DNA of 64,000 bases from Haematomicrobium sanguinis DSM 21259 (GTDB lineage: Bacteria; Actinomycetota; Actinomycetes; Actinomycetales; Micrococcaceae), in the NCBI RefSeq assembly GCF_000688395.1, contig NZ_JIAG01000005.1:62001-126000 (forward strand). The letters run 5' to 3'. Of this stretch, positions 19,810-57,935 are shown one piece after another; position 1 is the stretch's first letter, and every line of letters begins with the position of its first letter. Both the position numbers and the translations under genes were made by a program. The notes under the pieces are model-generated. The model was not told the origin of the DNA. It did not search any database and saw only the letters and a program-made list of their open reading frames with translations.

Positions 19810-19944
19810 ATCCCCCACCACGTCTACCCGCGAGTTGCCACGTCCGACGCTTATGGCGCGCCCATTCGCGTTGGACGTGGCGACTCGCGGTCTGGGTGCG
19901 GGCGAATAGGATTGGTGAATCGCACTTTTGAGGGAGAACTGGAC

Positions 19945-20664
19945 ATGGCAGACGGCAACCGGCCCGCGCGCACAGTGGCCAAAGAGGTCAAGGCAGCGAA
20001 GTGGCTGTCCGAGCGCAGGCGCATTCTCGCCTCTGCAATAATCGCGCTAGTTCTCGGCTCGGTCGTGGTTCTTCCGCTGAGTTCGCTGCCGCCGGGGATC
20101 GCGGTGCTGGATGCCAGCGTGCTGGTGTTACTGGCGTACGTCACGTGCTACTTGGTGATCACCTGCGTTGCCTTTTCTCAGGCGTCGCCGGCGCAAATCC
20201 GCAAGTGGGCGACGCGCGATCACCGCGGCACCTTCTTGCAACGCTACGTGCTTGGGGCGGCGCCGGGGCCGGGCGTTTCGGTGTTTTTCTCGGTCACGGC
20301 CCTCGGGATCGCCATGATTTGGATGCCCGGGATTGGCGGGACGTCGCTACCGGAACACGTACGAGTCGCGATTGCGGCGGCGCTCATTGCGGTCGCGTGG
20401 GTATCAATTGTGGTGTCCTTCGCAGTGACCTTTCACGCCGACGACATCTTGGAGCGCGGCAAGGCACTGGACTTTCCGGAAACGCCAGACCCGAAGTGGA
20501 GCGACTACGTCTACTTCGCAATGGCCGTCATGACCACCTTCGGCACCACCGATGTCAGCGTCACCTCCCGGGAAATGCGGCTAACAGTGACGGTCAACGC
20601 GGTACTCGCGTTTGTGTTCAACACGGTGACGGTGGCAGCGGTGGTTTCTGCGCTGTTGGGTTGA
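19945..20664 (+). CDS. DUF1345 membrane protein
   Basis: 239 residues from the ATG at 19945, preceded by AGGGAG; the longer frame opens with a TTG at 19912 and is less likely. Several hydrophobic helices are visible ([38 protein letters not shown], a pair around residues 110-160, and a C-terminal one). The C-terminal [18 protein letters not shown] followed by [18 protein letters not shown] is the DUF1345 signature. Function is unknown. It converges on the RibD-like reductase gene, and the 157-bp inverted-repeat element fills the gap. Confidence 0.8.
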
Positions 20665-20682
20665 GCGCGTCTCGGGCCGAAT

Positions 20683-20839
20683 TAGCCCACATTGGAACAC
20701 GCTGTTCAGCATTTCAGCCCCGCATAGTGCGCGCGGAACCGGCGGCCGGCCACGTTCGCCCTAGTCAGCGACCTATGGAGAGTTCGAGCGATCCGGGGCG
20801 GCGTCTAAGCGGGGCTGAAATGCCGACGAATGTGGGCTA
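20683..20839. repeat. Nested inverted-repeat element, copy 1
   Basis: Outer arms TAGCCCACATT (20683-20693) and AATGTGGGCTA (20829-20839) enclose inner perfect arms GCATTTCAGCCCCGC (20709-20723) and its complement (20809-20823). A second, clearly related copy lies at 28417-28574, with conserved flanking CTCGGGCC on the left and GAT on the right. The right outer arm supplies the stop codon of the reductase gene. It could be a MITE-like element, a structured RNA or a bidirectional terminator. Confidence 0.85.
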
Positions 20840-21505
20840 GATTGACCCACGGTCCCCCGCACCATCAGATTTCCGGTTCCACAACTGGTGCACGCGCCCC
20901 TCGCCAGTGCCCACAAAAGCCTCAATGTCGAAGCGCTCCTGGATTCCGCCGAGCCCCTCCCACAGAGACGTCCCTCCGCCCAGCACTACCGGAACAGTCA
21001 CCGTGTGCATCATGTCAACGAGATCCGCCGCGAGGAACTCCCGCACCGAACTCGGGCCGCCACCAAGGCGCACATCCAACCCGCCCGCGGCGTCCTTTGC
21101 CAACTGCAACGCTTCCTCCGGCGACGCATCCACAAAATAGAACACCGTCCCGTTCGCGAACTCAATCGGTTCGCGCGGATGGTTCGTCAGCACAAAGACC
21201 GGCGTCTTGAATGGCGGCTCATCGCCCCACCAGCCGCGCCAACCGTCGTCCGTCCACGGCCCCGACTGCGGCCCGAACTTCCGGCGCCCCATGATCTCGG
21301 CACCAATATTCTGCCCCCACAGCGTCGTGAGTGTGCGGTCCAAGGTGAGCGGCACATCGATATCGCCGACGCCGTGAATGAACCGCCCGTCGAACCCGGA
21401 AAACAGCGCGCTGGCCTCCCCGATCGGCTTCTCGAAAGTGACCTCGGTCCCCGCAGAGTAGCCGTCAATCGAGACGAACATATTGTGAATGCGAACCTTG
21501 GACAT
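20837..21505 (-). CDS. Dihydrofolate-reductase-like (RibD C-terminal domain) protein
   Basis: 222 residues from the ATG at 21505, which has GGGAG just upstream. The fold signature is seen in VRIHNMFVSIDGYSAG at the N-terminus, AEIMGRRKFG, PVFVLTNHPREP, and DVRLGGGPSSVREFL with VPVVLGGGTSLWEGL near the end, as in RibD/DHFR-like NADPH reductases. Actinobacterial members of this group often lack a known substrate. The last codons and the TAG stop lie in the arm of the repeat element, so the natural C-terminus may have been altered by its insertion. Confidence 0.85.
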   Translation of the reverse strand: MSKVRIHNMFVSIDGYSAGTEVTFEKPIGEASALFSGFDGRFIHGVGDIDVPLTLDRTLTTLWGQNIGAEIMGRRKFGPQSGPWTDDGWRGWWGDEPPFKTPVFVLTNHPREPIEFANGTVFYFVDASPEEALQLAKDAAGGLDVRLGGGPSSVREFLAADLVDMMHTVTVPVVLGGGTSLWEGLGGIQERFDIEAFVGTGEGRVHQLWNRKSDGAGDRGSI

Positions 21506-21621
21506 GACTCGTCTCCCACCGTCCGATATTCCTGCCTGCCACGACTCTAGGCGAGGCGCGGCGCCCATGGCGAGCATCGCCGTCGAACTTCACTGGCCTA
21601 ACCTACCGCCATGACCCGCCC

Positions 21622-26904: not shown

Positions 26905-27055
26905 TTAGGCGTCTAGAGTTAATTTTTTGAGCTCATTGCCGCAAACGATCCCGGTTCTTGGTTTTCTTGTGGAAGCAATCCCGGTTCTGGCACACTGGAA
27001 GTTGTCGCTTGCGCCCGCAAGCCGAGTAAAAGAACTTCTGACCCGGAGGGCGAGC

Positions 27056-28168
27056 ATGGACAGCGAAACCGCGCTGGCTCAGTCCGTGTTGATCCACGGC
27101 CCCATTTCGCGAAGTGACCTCACCCGGCGGCTCGATCTATCTCCCGCGAGCCTGACCCGGCTGGCAAAGCCGCTGCTGGATCGGGGCCTTCTCGTGGAAC
27201 TCGGTGAAGTGGCCGACGGCTCGGTCGGTCGACGCTCCCGCCCGCTGGATGTCGCCAAAAACGTCGGGTCCTTCATTGGAATCAAGCTCACCGGGGATCG
27301 GCTCTATGCGGTTCACACCAATGTTAGGGCGCAACCCCTAGGTTCACGATCGCATCCGATCAAGGACGCCAGTCCCGACGGCGTCGTAAAACTGATTGAG
27401 AAAACGATTGGCGAGTTGAAGGCAGAGGATCTGGTCGGTCTCGGCGTTTCGCTCGGGGGAACGGTCCGCGATGGCATCGTGGAGAACGCGCCGTTCTTAG
27501 GGTGGCAAAACGTCCCCTTCGCAGAGCTCCTGACATCCAATATTTCCGGTCCCGTCGCCATCGAGAACGATTTGATTGCCCTCGCCGAAGCCGAGCGCTG
27601 GTTTGGGATCGGTAAGGATTTGCCGGGGTTTGTTGTTGTGACAATTGGCGCTGGCGTCGGATACGCGCTTGTCGTTAACGGTGAAACAGTAGTGACCCCG
27701 GACGCAGGAACCGGAACCGGCGGCCATATTCCGCTCAGCAGTGACGGTTCGGTCTGCCCGGATGGACACCGCGGATGCTCCCGCGCGCTCCTGACCTCGC
27801 CGGCTATTTCGAACCAGGTTTCCGCCGCGCTGGGCCGACCTGTGAGCTACGAGGAAGCGCTCAAGCTGGCCGCCGATGGCGATCCGGCCGCGCGCACGAT
27901 CATCGACGATGCTGCCGACGCGCTGGGAACATTTTTTGCACTGGCCGCGAACTTCACACTGCAGTCCTCCATCGTCCTCGCAGGCGAAGGCGTAGGCCTG
28001 TACCTACGAAATCGGGATCGGGTCTCGGCAAGAGTTGACCAACTACGCTCTACATCTGCCAAGCCCGTCACGGTCCAAGTCGACGAATCGGGCTTCGACG
28101 CTTGGGCCCGCGGCGCCGCCACTATCGCCATCCAGTCCGCATTGCACCAACTCCCCACTCAAAAATAG
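27056..28168 (+). CDS. ROK-family transcriptional repressor
   Basis: 370 residues if started at the ATG at 27056, which has GGAGGG five bases upstream. A longer frame opens with TTG at 26927, but its extra 43 residues do not look like the family. The N-terminal winged helix is ISRSDLTRRLDLSPASLTRLAKPLLDRGLL. The ROK sugar-kinase-like domain has LGVSLGGTVRDG, VTIGAGVGYALV and a zinc-type cluster CPDGHRGCSRALL. These proteins usually sense a sugar and release DNA. Its divergent position points to control of the alpha-galactoside operon. Confidence 0.9.
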   Translation: MDSETALAQSVLIHGPISRSDLTRRLDLSPASLTRLAKPLLDRGLLVELGEVADGSVGRRSRPLDVAKNVGSFIGIKLTGDRLYAVHTNVRAQPLGSRSHPIKDASPDGVVKLIEKTIGELKAEDLVGLGVSLGGTVRDGIVENAPFLGWQNVPFAELLTSNISGPVAIENDLIALAEAERWFGIGKDLPGFVVVTIGAGVGYALVVNGETVVTPDAGTGTGGHIPLSSDGSVCPDGHRGCSRALLTSPAISNQVSAALGRPVSYEEALKLAADGDPAARTIIDDAADALGTFFALAANFTLQSSIVLAGEGVGLYLRNRDRVSARVDQLRSTSAKPVTVQVDESGFDAWARGAATIAIQSALHQLPTQK

Positions 28169-28682
28169 TGTTCTGCGATGCGGCGCGCCCGCGACAGTTG
28201 GGGGGGTCTCTTCGGATTGGCTGGCGATAAACCCCCAAGGGGCAATCTGGTGAGGATCATCGCCGTCGTGCATCTTTAGAGCTACACGGTGGCGGTAGTC
28301 GCTTGCGTTGCTAGGAGCGCGAGGCGGCCCGCGGACGGGGGCCCAAGTTCGGCGCGTAGATAAGGAGCGCGTGGCCCGGTTCGGCACCGATGGGTCCGGT
28401 GCGCCTCGGGCCAAGTTAGCCCACATTGGACGCTTTCGCTCGGCATTTCAGCCCCGCATACAGCGCGCGGCACCGGCGGATGCCACGTTTGGCCTAGTCA
28501 GCGGCCTGTGCGCAGCTCGAGCACCCGCGGAACCTCGTCTTATGCGGGGCTGAAATGCTGACCGATGTGGGCTAGATGTTGCGCGACCTGATGAGGTTGG
28601 TGACACAGTTGGGCCGCCAAAGGGGCGATGAGTTCACATCCGACGGGAACGTTCGCATACGTAGCCCACTAAGTATGATGAT
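28169..28682. other. Gene-free stretch between the ROK gene and the IS481 remnant
   Basis: No coding sequence is supported here. It holds CATCGCCGTCGTGCATC at 28258-28274, identical to 16963-16979. It also holds the second copy of the nested inverted-repeat element (28417-28574). A G-run at 28198-28206 can pair with CCCCCAA at 28232-28238 over seven bases but lacks a T tract. Confidence 0.6.
28417..28574. repeat. Nested inverted-repeat element, copy 2
   Basis: Outer arms TAGCCCACATTGG (28417-28429) and CCGATGTGGGCTA (28562-28574) pair with one mismatch. Inner arms GCATTTCAGCCCCGCATA (28443-28460) and its exact complement (28541-28558) give an 18-bp perfect stem. Interior blocks such as GCGCGCGG, ACCGGCGG and CCTAGTCAGCG are shared with copy 1 at 20683-20839, in the same orientation. 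Confidence 0.85.
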
Positions 28683-29169
28683 GTGTCCAAGTCAAAAGTC
28701 ATCATTCTCAGCGTCGCACAACAAGGCCTCTCCAAAACAGAAGTCGCCACCAAATTCGGCGTCTCACGCAGATGGGTACAAAAACTCGTCGACCGCTACA
28801 ACTGTGGCGGACTCGAGGTCCCCACCACAACCCACGCCAAACCACCCCTCAACTGCGCGAGCACATCATCTGAGGTTGACCCCAAAGCCATACCCCCGCA
28901 AACTCGCCACCACGCACTACCGCATACGCTTCGACAAAGTCACCAAAGACGGCAAACTCACCCTCGGACACGCCGGCAAACTCCACCAACTCGGCATCGG
29001 AGCACGATGGGCAAGAACCCCCGCCCTCATGCTCATCGACAACAACACCGTCACCGTTCTCCACCAAGACACAGGCGAAATACTCTCCACCAACACCATC
29101 AACGAACACACAAACTACTGGCGCAACAACGAAAGAGAGCCCGGCCGATGGCCAGGCTCTCAAACGTGA
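28683..29169 (+). pseudogene. IS481-family transposase remnant
   Basis: The frame from the GTG at 28683 gives the N-terminal helix-turn-helix of IS481 transposases (ILSVAQQGLSKTEVATKFGV, SRRWVQKLVDRY). It then jumps to a second frame encoding the family's C-terminal end (HYRIRFDKVTKDGKLTLGHA, LHQLGIGARWA, LMLIDNNTVTVL, DTGEIL). The catalytic DDE core between them is absent, so there is a large internal deletion plus a frameshift. GTGAACTATGTCGCG and GTGAACGATGTCTCG just after it resemble IS481 ends. It marks the left edge of the island. Confidence 0.8.
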
Positions 29170-29188
29170 ACTATGTCGCGACTCATAC

Positions 29189-29662
29189 GTGAACGATGTC
29201 TCGACTCATCACATTGTGGGGCTCCTAAAGACTTACTGCAATCAAGACGAGACAGTCCGCCAACTCGGCGGCCTGGTGACAGAAGCCCGAGGTCAGATCA
29301 GAGGTGTCGCGCCGCGAGGCGCGCCGCTGCCTCCGCGACCGGCGCGTAAAGGGAAGCACCTGCCTATTGAAACGGAGCGAGCGATCGTGGCCGAGTACCA
29401 GGCAGGGCAGACGATGAAAGCGATTGCCGCGAAGCACGGCATTCATCGCGCCACGGTCAGCGAGGTACTCGATAGGACGGGCGCGGCGAAGCGCCCGAAG
29501 GGCATGAGTCCGAGCCAAGTCGACATGGCTGCTCGTCTCTACGAATCCGGCCTATCGCTCGCCAACGTCGGCGCGCAGCTCGGGTTCGATGCCACCACGA
29601 TCCGCACGATGCTCTTGCGACATGGTGTAGTTACACGGGATAGTCACGGTCGAGAAAGATGA
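29189..29662 (+). CDS. Small protein with two helix-turn-helix repeats
   Basis: 157 residues from the GTG at 29189, although the first ten or so codons lie in an IS481-type end and the true start may be later. Two homeodomain-like HTH units are visible: AIVAEYQAGQTMKAIAAKHG with IHRATVSEVLDRTG, and AARLYESGLSLANVGAQLG with FDATTIRTMLLRHGV, ending DSHGRER. Such Hin-like HTH proteins are common next to recombinases and in actinobacterial mobile elements. It may be the DNA-binding tail of a recombinase or a separate regulator. It sits at the island edge and converges on the Abi gene. Confidence 0.6.
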   Translation: MNDVSTHHIVGLLKTYCNQDETVRQLGGLVTEARGQIRGVAPRGAPLPPRPARKGKHLPIETERAIVAEYQAGQTMKAIAAKHGIHRATVSEVLDRTGAAKRPKGMSPSQVDMAARLYESGLSLANVGAQLGFDATTIRTMLLRHGVVTRDSHGRER

Positions 29663-56001: not shown

Positions 56002-57924
56002 ATGAGCCTGCCTGATACCGACCTCGCGCCGTTCGCCTTCGACGGGATGCCGCCCGCGCTCGCCCCGGTCGAGGAGGAGGACGACGCCCGCACCGATGAG
56101 GGCATGGTCTCGTCGCTGCCGACCGGAGCGGTCGACGCACCACCGGGTAGCCGCGCGGTCATCTACCTGCGTGTGTCATCCAAGGGGCAGGTGAACACCG
56201 ACTACGACCCTGAAGGCATCTCCATCCCAGCGCAGCGCATCTCCTGCCAGCGCAAAGCCGAAGCGCTCGGGCTGACGATTGTGCACGAGTACATTGAGCC
56301 GGGCCGGTCAGCAACGGAGATGACCAAGCGCGTCGCCTTCCAGGAGATGCTCGAACGTATCCGCCGCGACCGCGACGTGGACTACGTCATCGTCTACAAG
56401 CTCTCCCGCTTCGCCCGTAACCGCACCGATGACGCGATCGTCATGGCCGATCTGCAGAAACGCGGAGTCACCCTGATCTCCGCGACCGAGCAGATCGACG
56501 CCACTCCGGTCGGGCAGCTCATGCATGGCATCCTCGCCGCGTTCAACGAATACCGCTCCCGCGAAGACGGGGCAGACATCGCCTACAAGATGAGCCAGAA
56601 GGCCAAGAACGGCGGCACCCTCGGCCGCGCACCCATCGGGTATCTCAACGTCACCGAGAACATCGACGGGCGCAAGATCAACACCGTCAAGGTCGATCCC
56701 GAACGCGCACCGTTCGTGAAGCTCGCCTTCGAGCTGTACGCCACACGCGACAAGACGTTCCAGGACATCGCAGACGAACTCACCGACCGGGGCCTACGCA
56801 CCCGGCCCACCCAGCGGCGCCCGGCCGGGCCGATCTCCGACTCGAAGATCCAGCAGATGCTCCGCGACCGCTACTACCTCGGAGAAGTCCGCTACAAGGG
56901 CGAGAGCTACCCCGGCCGGCACGAGCCGCTCATCTCCGAGGATCTGTTCAACCAGGTACAACAGCTCACGGACGAACGCGGCTACGCCCGCGAACGCCGT
57001 AAACGGCACGACCATTACCTCAAGGGCACCATCTGGTGCGGGCAGTGCCGCCTCGAACAGCACGTCAACCGCCGCATGATCCTCATGCGCACCACCGGCA
57101 GGCACGGCAACGCCGACTACGGCTACTTCTTCTGCCGAGGCGTGCAAGACCACGTCTGCGACGCCCCATACTCCTCAATCGACCGCGTCGAGGACGCCGT
57201 CGCCGAGCACTACAAGACCATCCGCCTCAGCCCCGCCTTCGTCACCGCCGTGCGCAACCACATCGAATCCGCGCTCAACGACCAGGTCGCCGCGCAGCAA
57301 CTGCTCCGCAAGAACCTCGAAGACCAACTCGCACAGCTCACCGTCAAAGAAGACAACCTCCTCGACCTCGCCGCCGATAACTCGCTCCCGCAAGAACGCA
57401 TCCGCCAGCGCCTGCGCGACATCGCCCGTGACCGGCAACGCGTGACCGAGCAACTCAGCCAGGTACACGGCGACCTCTCCAGCGGTCGAGCGTTCCTCGA
57501 CGCGCATCTGAACCTGCTCGAGAACCCCTACGAGCTGTACCTCCACGCCAGTGAAGTGACCCGACGCAAGCTCAACCAGGCGATCTTCGCCCACGTCTAC
57601 GTCGCTCACGACGAAGTCATCGGCGACGACATCCGCTCTCCGCTACGGGAACTTCTCGCCGCCGAACGCGGCTGGGAAGCCCTCACAGCGGGCGCAACAC
57701 CCGAGGCCGCCCGCGCCGCCACCCAAGCCGCGACAGCGCGCCACAGCGGCCCAGAAACGCCAAAAACCGCCCCGAAGGGCGGCCTGGCCGAACTAACAAA
57801 CCTCTGGCTTGACCTGCCTGGCGGCGTTTACGAGGACGCCAATTGCAGTAAGCCTCTTATGGTGGAGCTAAGGAGAATCGAACTCCTGACCTTTTCATTG
57901 CGAACGAAACGCTCTACCAACTGA
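56002..57924 (+). CDS. Large serine recombinase (integrase) whose 3' end runs into tRNA-Ala
   Basis: 640 residues. The resolvase domain has the nucleophile in YLRVSSKGQ (Ser at about 59) and KLSRFARNRTDDAIVM. A Recombinase domain follows (FQDIADELTDRGLRTRPTQR, IQQMLRDRYYLGEVRYKGES), then a zinc ribbon (WCGQCRLEQHV, FFCRGVQDHVCD) and a coiled coil. The final 21 residues (VELRRIELLTFSLRTKRSTN) are read from the antisense strand of the tRNA gene, so in the excised form the C-terminus must differ. It has GGAAGGAGG upstream. It is the likely integrase of the island. Confidence 0.92.
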   Translation: MSLPDTDLAPFAFDGMPPALAPVEEEDDARTDEGMVSSLPTGAVDAPPGSRAVIYLRVSSKGQVNTDYDPEGISIPAQRISCQRKAEALGLTIVHEYIEPGRSATEMTKRVAFQEMLERIRRDRDVDYVIVYKLSRFARNRTDDAIVMADLQKRGVTLISATEQIDATPVGQLMHGILAAFNEYRSREDGADIAYKMSQKAKNGGTLGRAPIGYLNVTENIDGRKINTVKVDPERAPFVKLAFELYATRDKTFQDIADELTDRGLRTRPTQRRPAGPISDSKIQQMLRDRYYLGEVRYKGESYPGRHEPLISEDLFNQVQQLTDERGYARERRKRHDHYLKGTIWCGQCRLEQHVNRRMILMRTTGRHGNADYGYFFCRGVQDHVCDAPYSSIDRVEDAVAEHYKTIRLSPAFVTAVRNHIESALNDQVAAQQLLRKNLEDQLAQLTVKEDNLLDLAADNSLPQERIRQRLRDIARDRQRVTEQLSQVHGDLSSGRAFLDAHLNLLENPYELYLHASEVTRRKLNQAIFAHVYVAHDEVIGDDIRSPLRELLAAERGWEALTAGATPEAARAATQAATARHSGPETPKTAPKGGLAELTNLWLDLPGGVYEDANCSKPLMVELRRIELLTFSLRTKRSTN

Positions 57925-57935
57925 GCTATAGCCCC
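57860..57935 (-). tRNA. tRNA-Ala (anticodon CGC)
   Basis: The minus strand folds into a full cloverleaf: acceptor GGGGCTA/TAGCTCC with the G3-U70 wobble that marks alanine tRNAs, D arm GCTC/GAGC, anticodon stem TTTCG/TGAAA with loop TTCGCAA (anticodon CGC), T arm AGGAG/CTCCT, and encoded CCA (76 nt with CCA). Its 3' end faces the island, the usual insertion point for tRNA-targeting elements. Confidence 0.95.

Follow-up and report, generated by a model that had tools for sequence, protein, structure and literature searches.

Why does one inverted-repeat element occur twice, with its stems kept and its loops changed, within 8 kb of the Haematomicrobium sanguinis DSM 21259 genome, and is it best read as a mobile element, a recombination site or a structured RNA? 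We addressed this question for a stretch of 64,000 nucleotides (the window, which here means the whole stretch of DNA that was analysed), and followed the element through the rest of the draft genome and through the genomes of relatives.

The two copies in the window

A preliminary description of the window had reported two copies of a nested inverted repeat with perfect inner arms, additional outer arms and conserved interior blocks. The features on which the present analysis is based are as follows.

20709..20823, + strand: type-A element copy 1, 115 bp arm to arm, with arms at 20709-20723 and 20809-20823
20752..20771, + strand: core of copy 1, ACGTTCGCCCTAGTCAGCGA, which resembles the IS1634 left-end motif
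20683..20693, + strand: outer left arm of copy 1, TAGCCCACATT, which resembles the type-C arm
20829..20839, - strand: outer right arm of copy 1; CTA at 20837-20839 serves the RibD_C gene as its TAG stop
20646..20842, + strand: part of copy 1 common to copy 2 in a permissive alignment
28443..28558, + strand: type-A element copy 2, 116 bp arm to arm, with arms at 28443-28457 and 28544-28558
28485..28504, + strand: core of copy 2, ACGTTTGGCCTAGTCAGCGG, located with the IS1634 motif matrix
28417..28429, + strand: outer left arm of copy 2, TAGCCCACATTGG
28562..28574, - strand: outer right arm of copy 2, 92% complementary to the left one
28380..28577, + strand: part of copy 2 common to copy 1 in the permissive alignment

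Both copies are present as described, matching each other in blastn at 79% identity over 157 bp (E 2.2e-29) and at 81% identity when compared arm to arm. The 15-bp inner-arm word GCATTTCAGCCCCGC is exact at all four places, outer arms of 11-13 bp occur in both copies, and the alignment contains interior blocks common to the two. The outer arms of copy 1 sit inside a longer 80% match. In the permissive alignment, 158 of 203 columns are identical, and the homology runs 37 bp past the left outer arm and only 3 bp past the right one.

A family of elements with one core and several arm types

The count of two copies, correct for the window, underestimates the genome total: H. sanguinis holds at least 12 members, window copies included, spread over seven contigs (C1, C2, C4, C5, C8, C10 and C17) and comprising six type-A, four B-like and two type-C elements. 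Allowing up to two mismatches, the inner-arm word occurs 22 times in the genome, and 12 of these occurrences pair up at distances of 114-116 bp to give six elements. The six are the type-A members: the two window copies on C5, one element on C2, two on C8 and one on C10. A covariance model built from the six type-A copies (R1), which recovers those copies by construction, also finds an element at C4:40414-40523 (E 2.2e-4) whose arms differ from type A. A core search followed by an arm search assigned type B, with arms around TGCACAACTTTGA, to the C4 element, to C8:98277 and to a diverged element at C8:55871, and type C, with arms TAGCCCAC, to two elements on C1, the tips of which are uncertain. 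The three arm types GCATTTCAGCCCCGC, TGCACAACTTTGA and TAGCCCAC share one off-centre core near ACGTTTGCCCTAGTCAGCG, and within each type the arms still pair even though their sequences differ between types.

A second model (R2), consisting of the arms and cores of 12 elements joined by N spacers, adds C17:64627-64742, which R1 had matched at E 3.3. Copies 1 and 2 score 70.7 and 64.9 bits with R2, each being itself part of the model. C8a and C1a stayed below the cut-off in the R2 scan, and C8b and C10 were recovered in part; these members are counted from the arm and core searches. The counts leave aside three own-genome R1 matches with E 4 to 8 (L069-L071) as well as two alignments (A3 and A5) that misaligned the arm types, and the R1 matches L066 (own genome), L072, L074 and L076 were dropped because they have no core.

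The check proposed with the preliminary description, a search for further copies in the same and in related genomes, yielded additional members in both; the first ground for refutation named there, a lack of such copies, thereby falls away. Three other genomes of the same family hold seven elements: three in G007 (Arthrobacter sp. CAU 1506, Micrococcaceae), two in G074 and two in G093. When R1 was run over 148 genomes (own included), six genomes matched, of which G093 (two loci) and G007 (one) were kept; matches in G073, G114 and G116 lacked the core on inspection. R2, run over 296 genomes (own included) at E <=0.05, returned the own genome, G007 (three), G074 (two) and G093 (one), so that G007 and G093a were found again by a model from whose building they had been excluded; G093b comes from the R1 scan and is absent from the R2 scan. 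Blastn with copy 1 had no match outside the own genome among 59 genomes of the relatives set (own included) and none among plasmids, and a search of viral contigs with an arm-plus-core pattern found none. By eye, the left half of the G007:C7 element (L198:1441-1560) is partly duplicated in tandem.

The collection comprises 19 elements from the own genome and three relatives, all of them gene-less inverted repeats of 93-126 bp arm to arm. The most alike pairs, C1a/C1b (91% identity) and G074a/b (88%), each lie within 1.5 kb, which makes local duplication as likely as transposition for both.

Spacing between core and arms

In addition to the common core, the elements share a stepped geometry. 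With 19-nt arms, brought into register by eye at [A/T]GC[C/A]C (the G007 elements shifted by 1-3 bp between settings), the spacers of the 19 elements measure 12-15 or 23-25 bp to the left of the core and 23, 33-35 or 44 bp to its right; copy 1 has 24 and 33 bp, copy 2 has 23 and 35 bp. Type-B arms occur with a left spacer of 13 bp, or of 24 bp in C17. The steps of 10-11 bp equal about one helical turn, and the arm-to-arm lengths (93-94, 104-108, 114-118 and 126 bp) are close to 9, 10, 11 and 12 turns of 10.5 bp. In a test that let each cluster fall anywhere, the chance of such a helical arrangement was 0.075 for the left and 0.008 for the right spacers. The helical spacing is suggestive rather than proof, because the register was set by eye and the classes share descent. 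DNA looping between the ends suggests itself as a natural cause of the stepped spacers; a 1994 study of IS50 reportedly found transposition to depend on length and twist. Helical periodicity was not found in the literature on miniature inverted-repeat elements and transposon length within a limited collection of papers.

The core and the left ends of IS1634 insertion sequences

Through the core word we came upon an insertion sequence of 1682 bp in genome G162, which has the ends CCTGAGTTGCACAC and encodes a DDE transposase of the IS1634 family (NCBIfam NF033559, 398.5 bits). It carries a near-identical core 42 bp from its tip and is flanked by a perfect 54-bp target duplication. This sequence (L152) was left out of the tests since it had been picked by its core. 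Among 12 other IS1634 left ends, those with tips judged clear, roughly half have a motif like GCGTTTGTGCTGGT at about the same place.

A matrix derived from the 19 element cores puts its best site at offset 40-43 in five of these 12 ends; of 1000 column-shuffled matrices, none did as well in that register and 20 did so in any register. The ends came from two sets. From one, nine of 14 loci, L152 among them, were used at first; L158 and L162 were dropped as near copies, and L155, L164 and L165 had been dropped without good reason. From the second, four of 15 loci were used, the rest being copies or having no clear end. With the latter three of the first set restored, six of 15 ends have the best site in register (shuffles: 0/1000 there, 13/1000 in any register), the remaining nine have it elsewhere, and the score sum was reached by 5 of 1000 column-shuffled matrices. 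The left spacers of 23-25 bp predict an offset of 42-44, and the IS1634 matches lie at 41-43.

In the reverse direction, we scanned 14 of the 19 elements with a matrix built on six IS1634 ends. The core came out on top, in the same orientation, in 11 of them; this is the weaker test, since the six motif rows were picked by eye. The core of copy 1 ranks first of 192 positions (shuffle chance 0.046) and that of copy 2 first of 194 (0.0015). Lower ranks were obtained for C8a (14), C8b (5) and G093b (9), and the rank-1 score was reached by 22% of shuffles for C1a and 33% for G093a. As far as sequence comparison goes, the core both resembles the left-end motif present in part of the IS1634 family and keeps its register.

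The arms follow IS1634 less closely. Excerpts of a published account give the end consensus of the family as C-----YT (PMC2266710); three of eight type-B ends fit it in the chosen register (B1 left, B2 left and C17 right) and no type-A end does; the likeness to IS1634 ends is only loose for the arms of types A and C. Moreover, NF033559 has no match at E <= 1e-10 in the own genome (G000), and the same search found no IS1634 transposase in G007 and G074 (G093 lay outside the set searched), and for this reason no resident partner is seen. Collapsed repeats in the 27-contig draft could hide a transposase. A plasmid search with 40 bases of the G162 insertion sequence gave no match, and one IS1634 relative was found among viral contigs.

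These observations bear on an alternative to which we assign a small share of the probability, namely that the elements are MITE-like derivatives of another DDE transposase and that the likeness of their core to IS1634 is convergence or chance. The failure to find an IS1634 gene in the three element-bearing genomes, the divergent arms of types A and C and the nine of 15 ends without the motif in register all fit such a history. Against it, the motif, where present, sits in the register predicted from the elements, and the G162 insertion sequence bears the core almost letter for letter. We consider an origin related to IS1634 the better account.

The core word outside the family

A 14-mer of the core occurs in 56 of 395 genomes, with 11 control matches. 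We fetched 30 of the places; 16 of them share one site in genus g32, and further ones coincide at sites in g23 and g31. Element-like arms are present at just one of the 30, in G007 (L139), so the core was rejected as a widespread motif of its own. At the g32 site, L116 reached a score of 10 (shuffle maximum 7) through words of that site and not through element arms. Among five contig matches, L110 alone, the same place as in G007, shows arms that pair across the core. In one viral contig (L212) the core falls inside a long reading frame and looks like chance.

Several of these places are of interest in their own right. The 16 genomes of genus g32 (L114-L129) carry TTTSCCCTAGTCAG at one common site beside TTATCCACA and TGTGGA words that resemble DnaA boxes. 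The same word follows an intact tRNA-Leu gene in L132 and, in L130, L133, L134 and L138, a stretch like a tRNA-Leu 3' end in which no tRNA was called; these may possibly be old attachment sites or tRNA terminators. In Kocuria atrinae (L108:4600-4700) the core itself forms the arm of a palindrome of about 20 bp per arm, adjoining a UvrA-like gene (both by eye).

Exact core words lie beside tRNA-Leu or tRNA-like 3' ends and at the start of an integrase-like ORF (L111, by eye), which would fit elements that serve a tyrosine recombinase as attachment sites or as recombination sites of the integron type. However, those sites have no arms above shuffles, and inspection by eye of the genes next to the elements revealed no integrase. 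We regard this origin as very improbable.

Neighbouring genes and a possible role as RNA

The genes around the two window copies are the following.

20837..21577, - strand: RibD_C-domain reductase gene (PF01872, E 1.1e-10), with its stop codon inside the element
19912..20664, + strand: DUF1345 gene (PF07077), the convergent neighbour of copy 1
26927..28168, + strand: ROK-family gene (PF00480) upstream of copy 2
28683..29192, + strand: ORF with an HTH_23 domain (PF13384) adjoining copy 2

Pfam was run on ten window and neighbour ORFs, with gene bounds from a simple ORF caller; PurM, MFS and sulfatase were named by Pfam, and pheS, pheT, purF and dapA from translations by eye. Copy 1 lies between the convergent RibD_C and DUF1345 genes and supplies the TAG stop (20837-20839) to the former, on the minus strand, in agreement with the preliminary description. 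Copy 2 had been placed after the ROK gene, beside an IS481 remnant. It does follow the ROK gene, at 249 bp, whereas the adjoining ORF matches HTH_23 with no IS481 assignment; it is possibly a transposase remnant.

Elsewhere, elements lie at gene ends in C4, in C8 (after pheT and after the sulfatase gene), in C1 (after purF) and in C17, as copy 1 does, and upstream of genes in C2 and before pheS, dapA and purM. In the C17 element (L209:1501-1616) both convergent ORFs end with stop codons inside the element. Stop codons of adjoining genes thus fall within arms in both copy 1 and the C17 element, so that later reuse of the elements is partly established; a terminator role is only a guess.

Two neighbourhoods are noted here. 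In C1, an MFS transporter gene (L143:4912-6550) located between purF (by eye) and purM is flanked by two type-C elements in direct orientation, which share sequence past their arms, as might follow from insertion or duplication of the whole segment in one piece. A small ORF with matches to DUF559/MTES_1575 endonuclease-like proteins (L147:11183-11842) lies between two type-A elements, and between pheT and the sulfatase gene.

The stems might alternatively be kept for RNA folding, as in a structured RNA or a bidirectional terminator. Both window copies fold better than all of 200 shuffles (z -4.6 for copy 1, -6.4 for copy 2), several elements separate convergent genes, and stop codons fall inside two of them. 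Nevertheless, no Rfam family reached the gathering score for the elements when the window and copy 1 were scanned, the Rfam match beside copy 1 is at chance level only, and copy 1 contains no T-run terminator inside, with one weak site outside. The sole match at gathering score in the window is a tRNA gene on the minus strand (57863-57935). Weak covariation, spacers that step by turns of DNA and the several copies upstream of genes also argue against this reading, which we hold to be improbable.

The covariation in question was measured on the six type-A copies, where one of 15 arm pairs has changed on both sides, 11 never vary, and the score was reached by 40 of 500 shuffles. The proposal that the stems are under selection is accordingly weakened for type A and retains the observation that the arms differ between types and yet pair; such pairing would also follow from ends that evolve with a transposase.

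Evidence for and against recent movement

Recent mobility, the other possibility raised for the window copies, is not supported: the copies are 79-81% alike, and neither a clear target duplication nor, in the draft genome, an IS1634 transposase was found. No clear target duplication was found among the 19 elements, and the script applied to 14 of them did find that of a control insertion sequence; the best candidate is a low-complexity 23/28 match at C2.

Palindromic, mostly intergenic elements with no target duplication also recall REP/REPIN sequences, which are moved by a Y1 (RAYT) transposase. The draft genome differs in having no Y1_Tnp match in a search that matched 5 of 14 control genomes, and we give this origin hardly any weight.

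Discussion

By combining covariance models with arm and core searches, we defined a family of short, gene-less inverted repeats in Micrococcaceae that share one core and have stepped spacers. In our judgement these are probably old MITE-like, non-autonomous elements related to IS1634, now relics, some of which have been reused as gene ends. Two inverted arms, about 19 bp long, delimit each element, and a core placed closer to the left arm appears to be the counterpart of a subterminal motif that some members of the IS1634 family carry. Both arms and the left core would have been bound by a DDE transposase of the IS1634 type acting in trans. As the short DNA between the arms had to loop, mainly lengths of whole turns (about 9, 10, 11 and 12) would have been mobilised, and the remaining interior would have drifted. 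We infer transposase binding, looping and past transposition from these patterns, and the identity of the transposase is the least certain step. An autonomous partner would be expected to carry the ends GCATTTCAGCCCC or CAATTTCTGCACAACTTTGA, with the core 23-24 bp past a 19-bp arm.

Compared with IS1634 (formerly IS1549), the elements share the left-end motif located 41-43 bp from the tip in part of that family, with the same geometry in those that have a 23-25 bp left spacer; they differ in having no transposase gene, in their length (93-126 bp versus about 1.66-2.04 kb) and in the diverged arms A and C. Bacterial MITEs are likewise short and gene-less, with terminal inverted repeats, several dispersed copies and interior drift. 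Distinct here are the single core with different arms, the spacer steps by helical turns, and the lack of a clear target duplication and of a partner insertion sequence found in the genome. ERIC-type enterobacterial sequences are imperfect palindromes of about 120 bp between genes, similar by description to the present intergenic palindromes, in another host group.

Miniature elements linked to IS1634 are not new as a kind, since they are already listed for two archaeal Methanosarcina species in a published table (15-23 copies of 247-249 bp with assigned IS1634-family parents; PMC3852290). As described there, those elements resemble ours in being gene-less and in their inverted repeats (18-20 bp), in contrast to the 93-126 bp length, the Micrococcaceae hosts, the several arm types around one core and the stepped spacers found here. 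Papers on Cardinium and Microcystis MITEs name IS1634 and, in the portions consulted, do not tie the MITEs to it (PMC9769881, PMC11448079). No report of miniature inverted repeats in Micrococcaceae was found in a limited collection of papers, and the covariance models built here find such elements in genomes of this family.

According to excerpts of the account cited above for the end consensus, long and variable duplications are reported for IS1549 and IS1634, with no model proposed (PMC2266710). We put forward, as a tentative idea that is more doubtful than the relic interpretation itself, that the core may serve IS1634-type transposases as a second docking site, present on one side only, and that the elements may form a natural length series of closable loops. 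If this is true, the length series would have preserved, through evolution, the geometry of a transposase that is poorly understood and whose target duplications are long and variable, and gene-less relics in Micrococcaceae genomes would reveal both the recognition of the IS1634 left end and how tightly DNA can loop.
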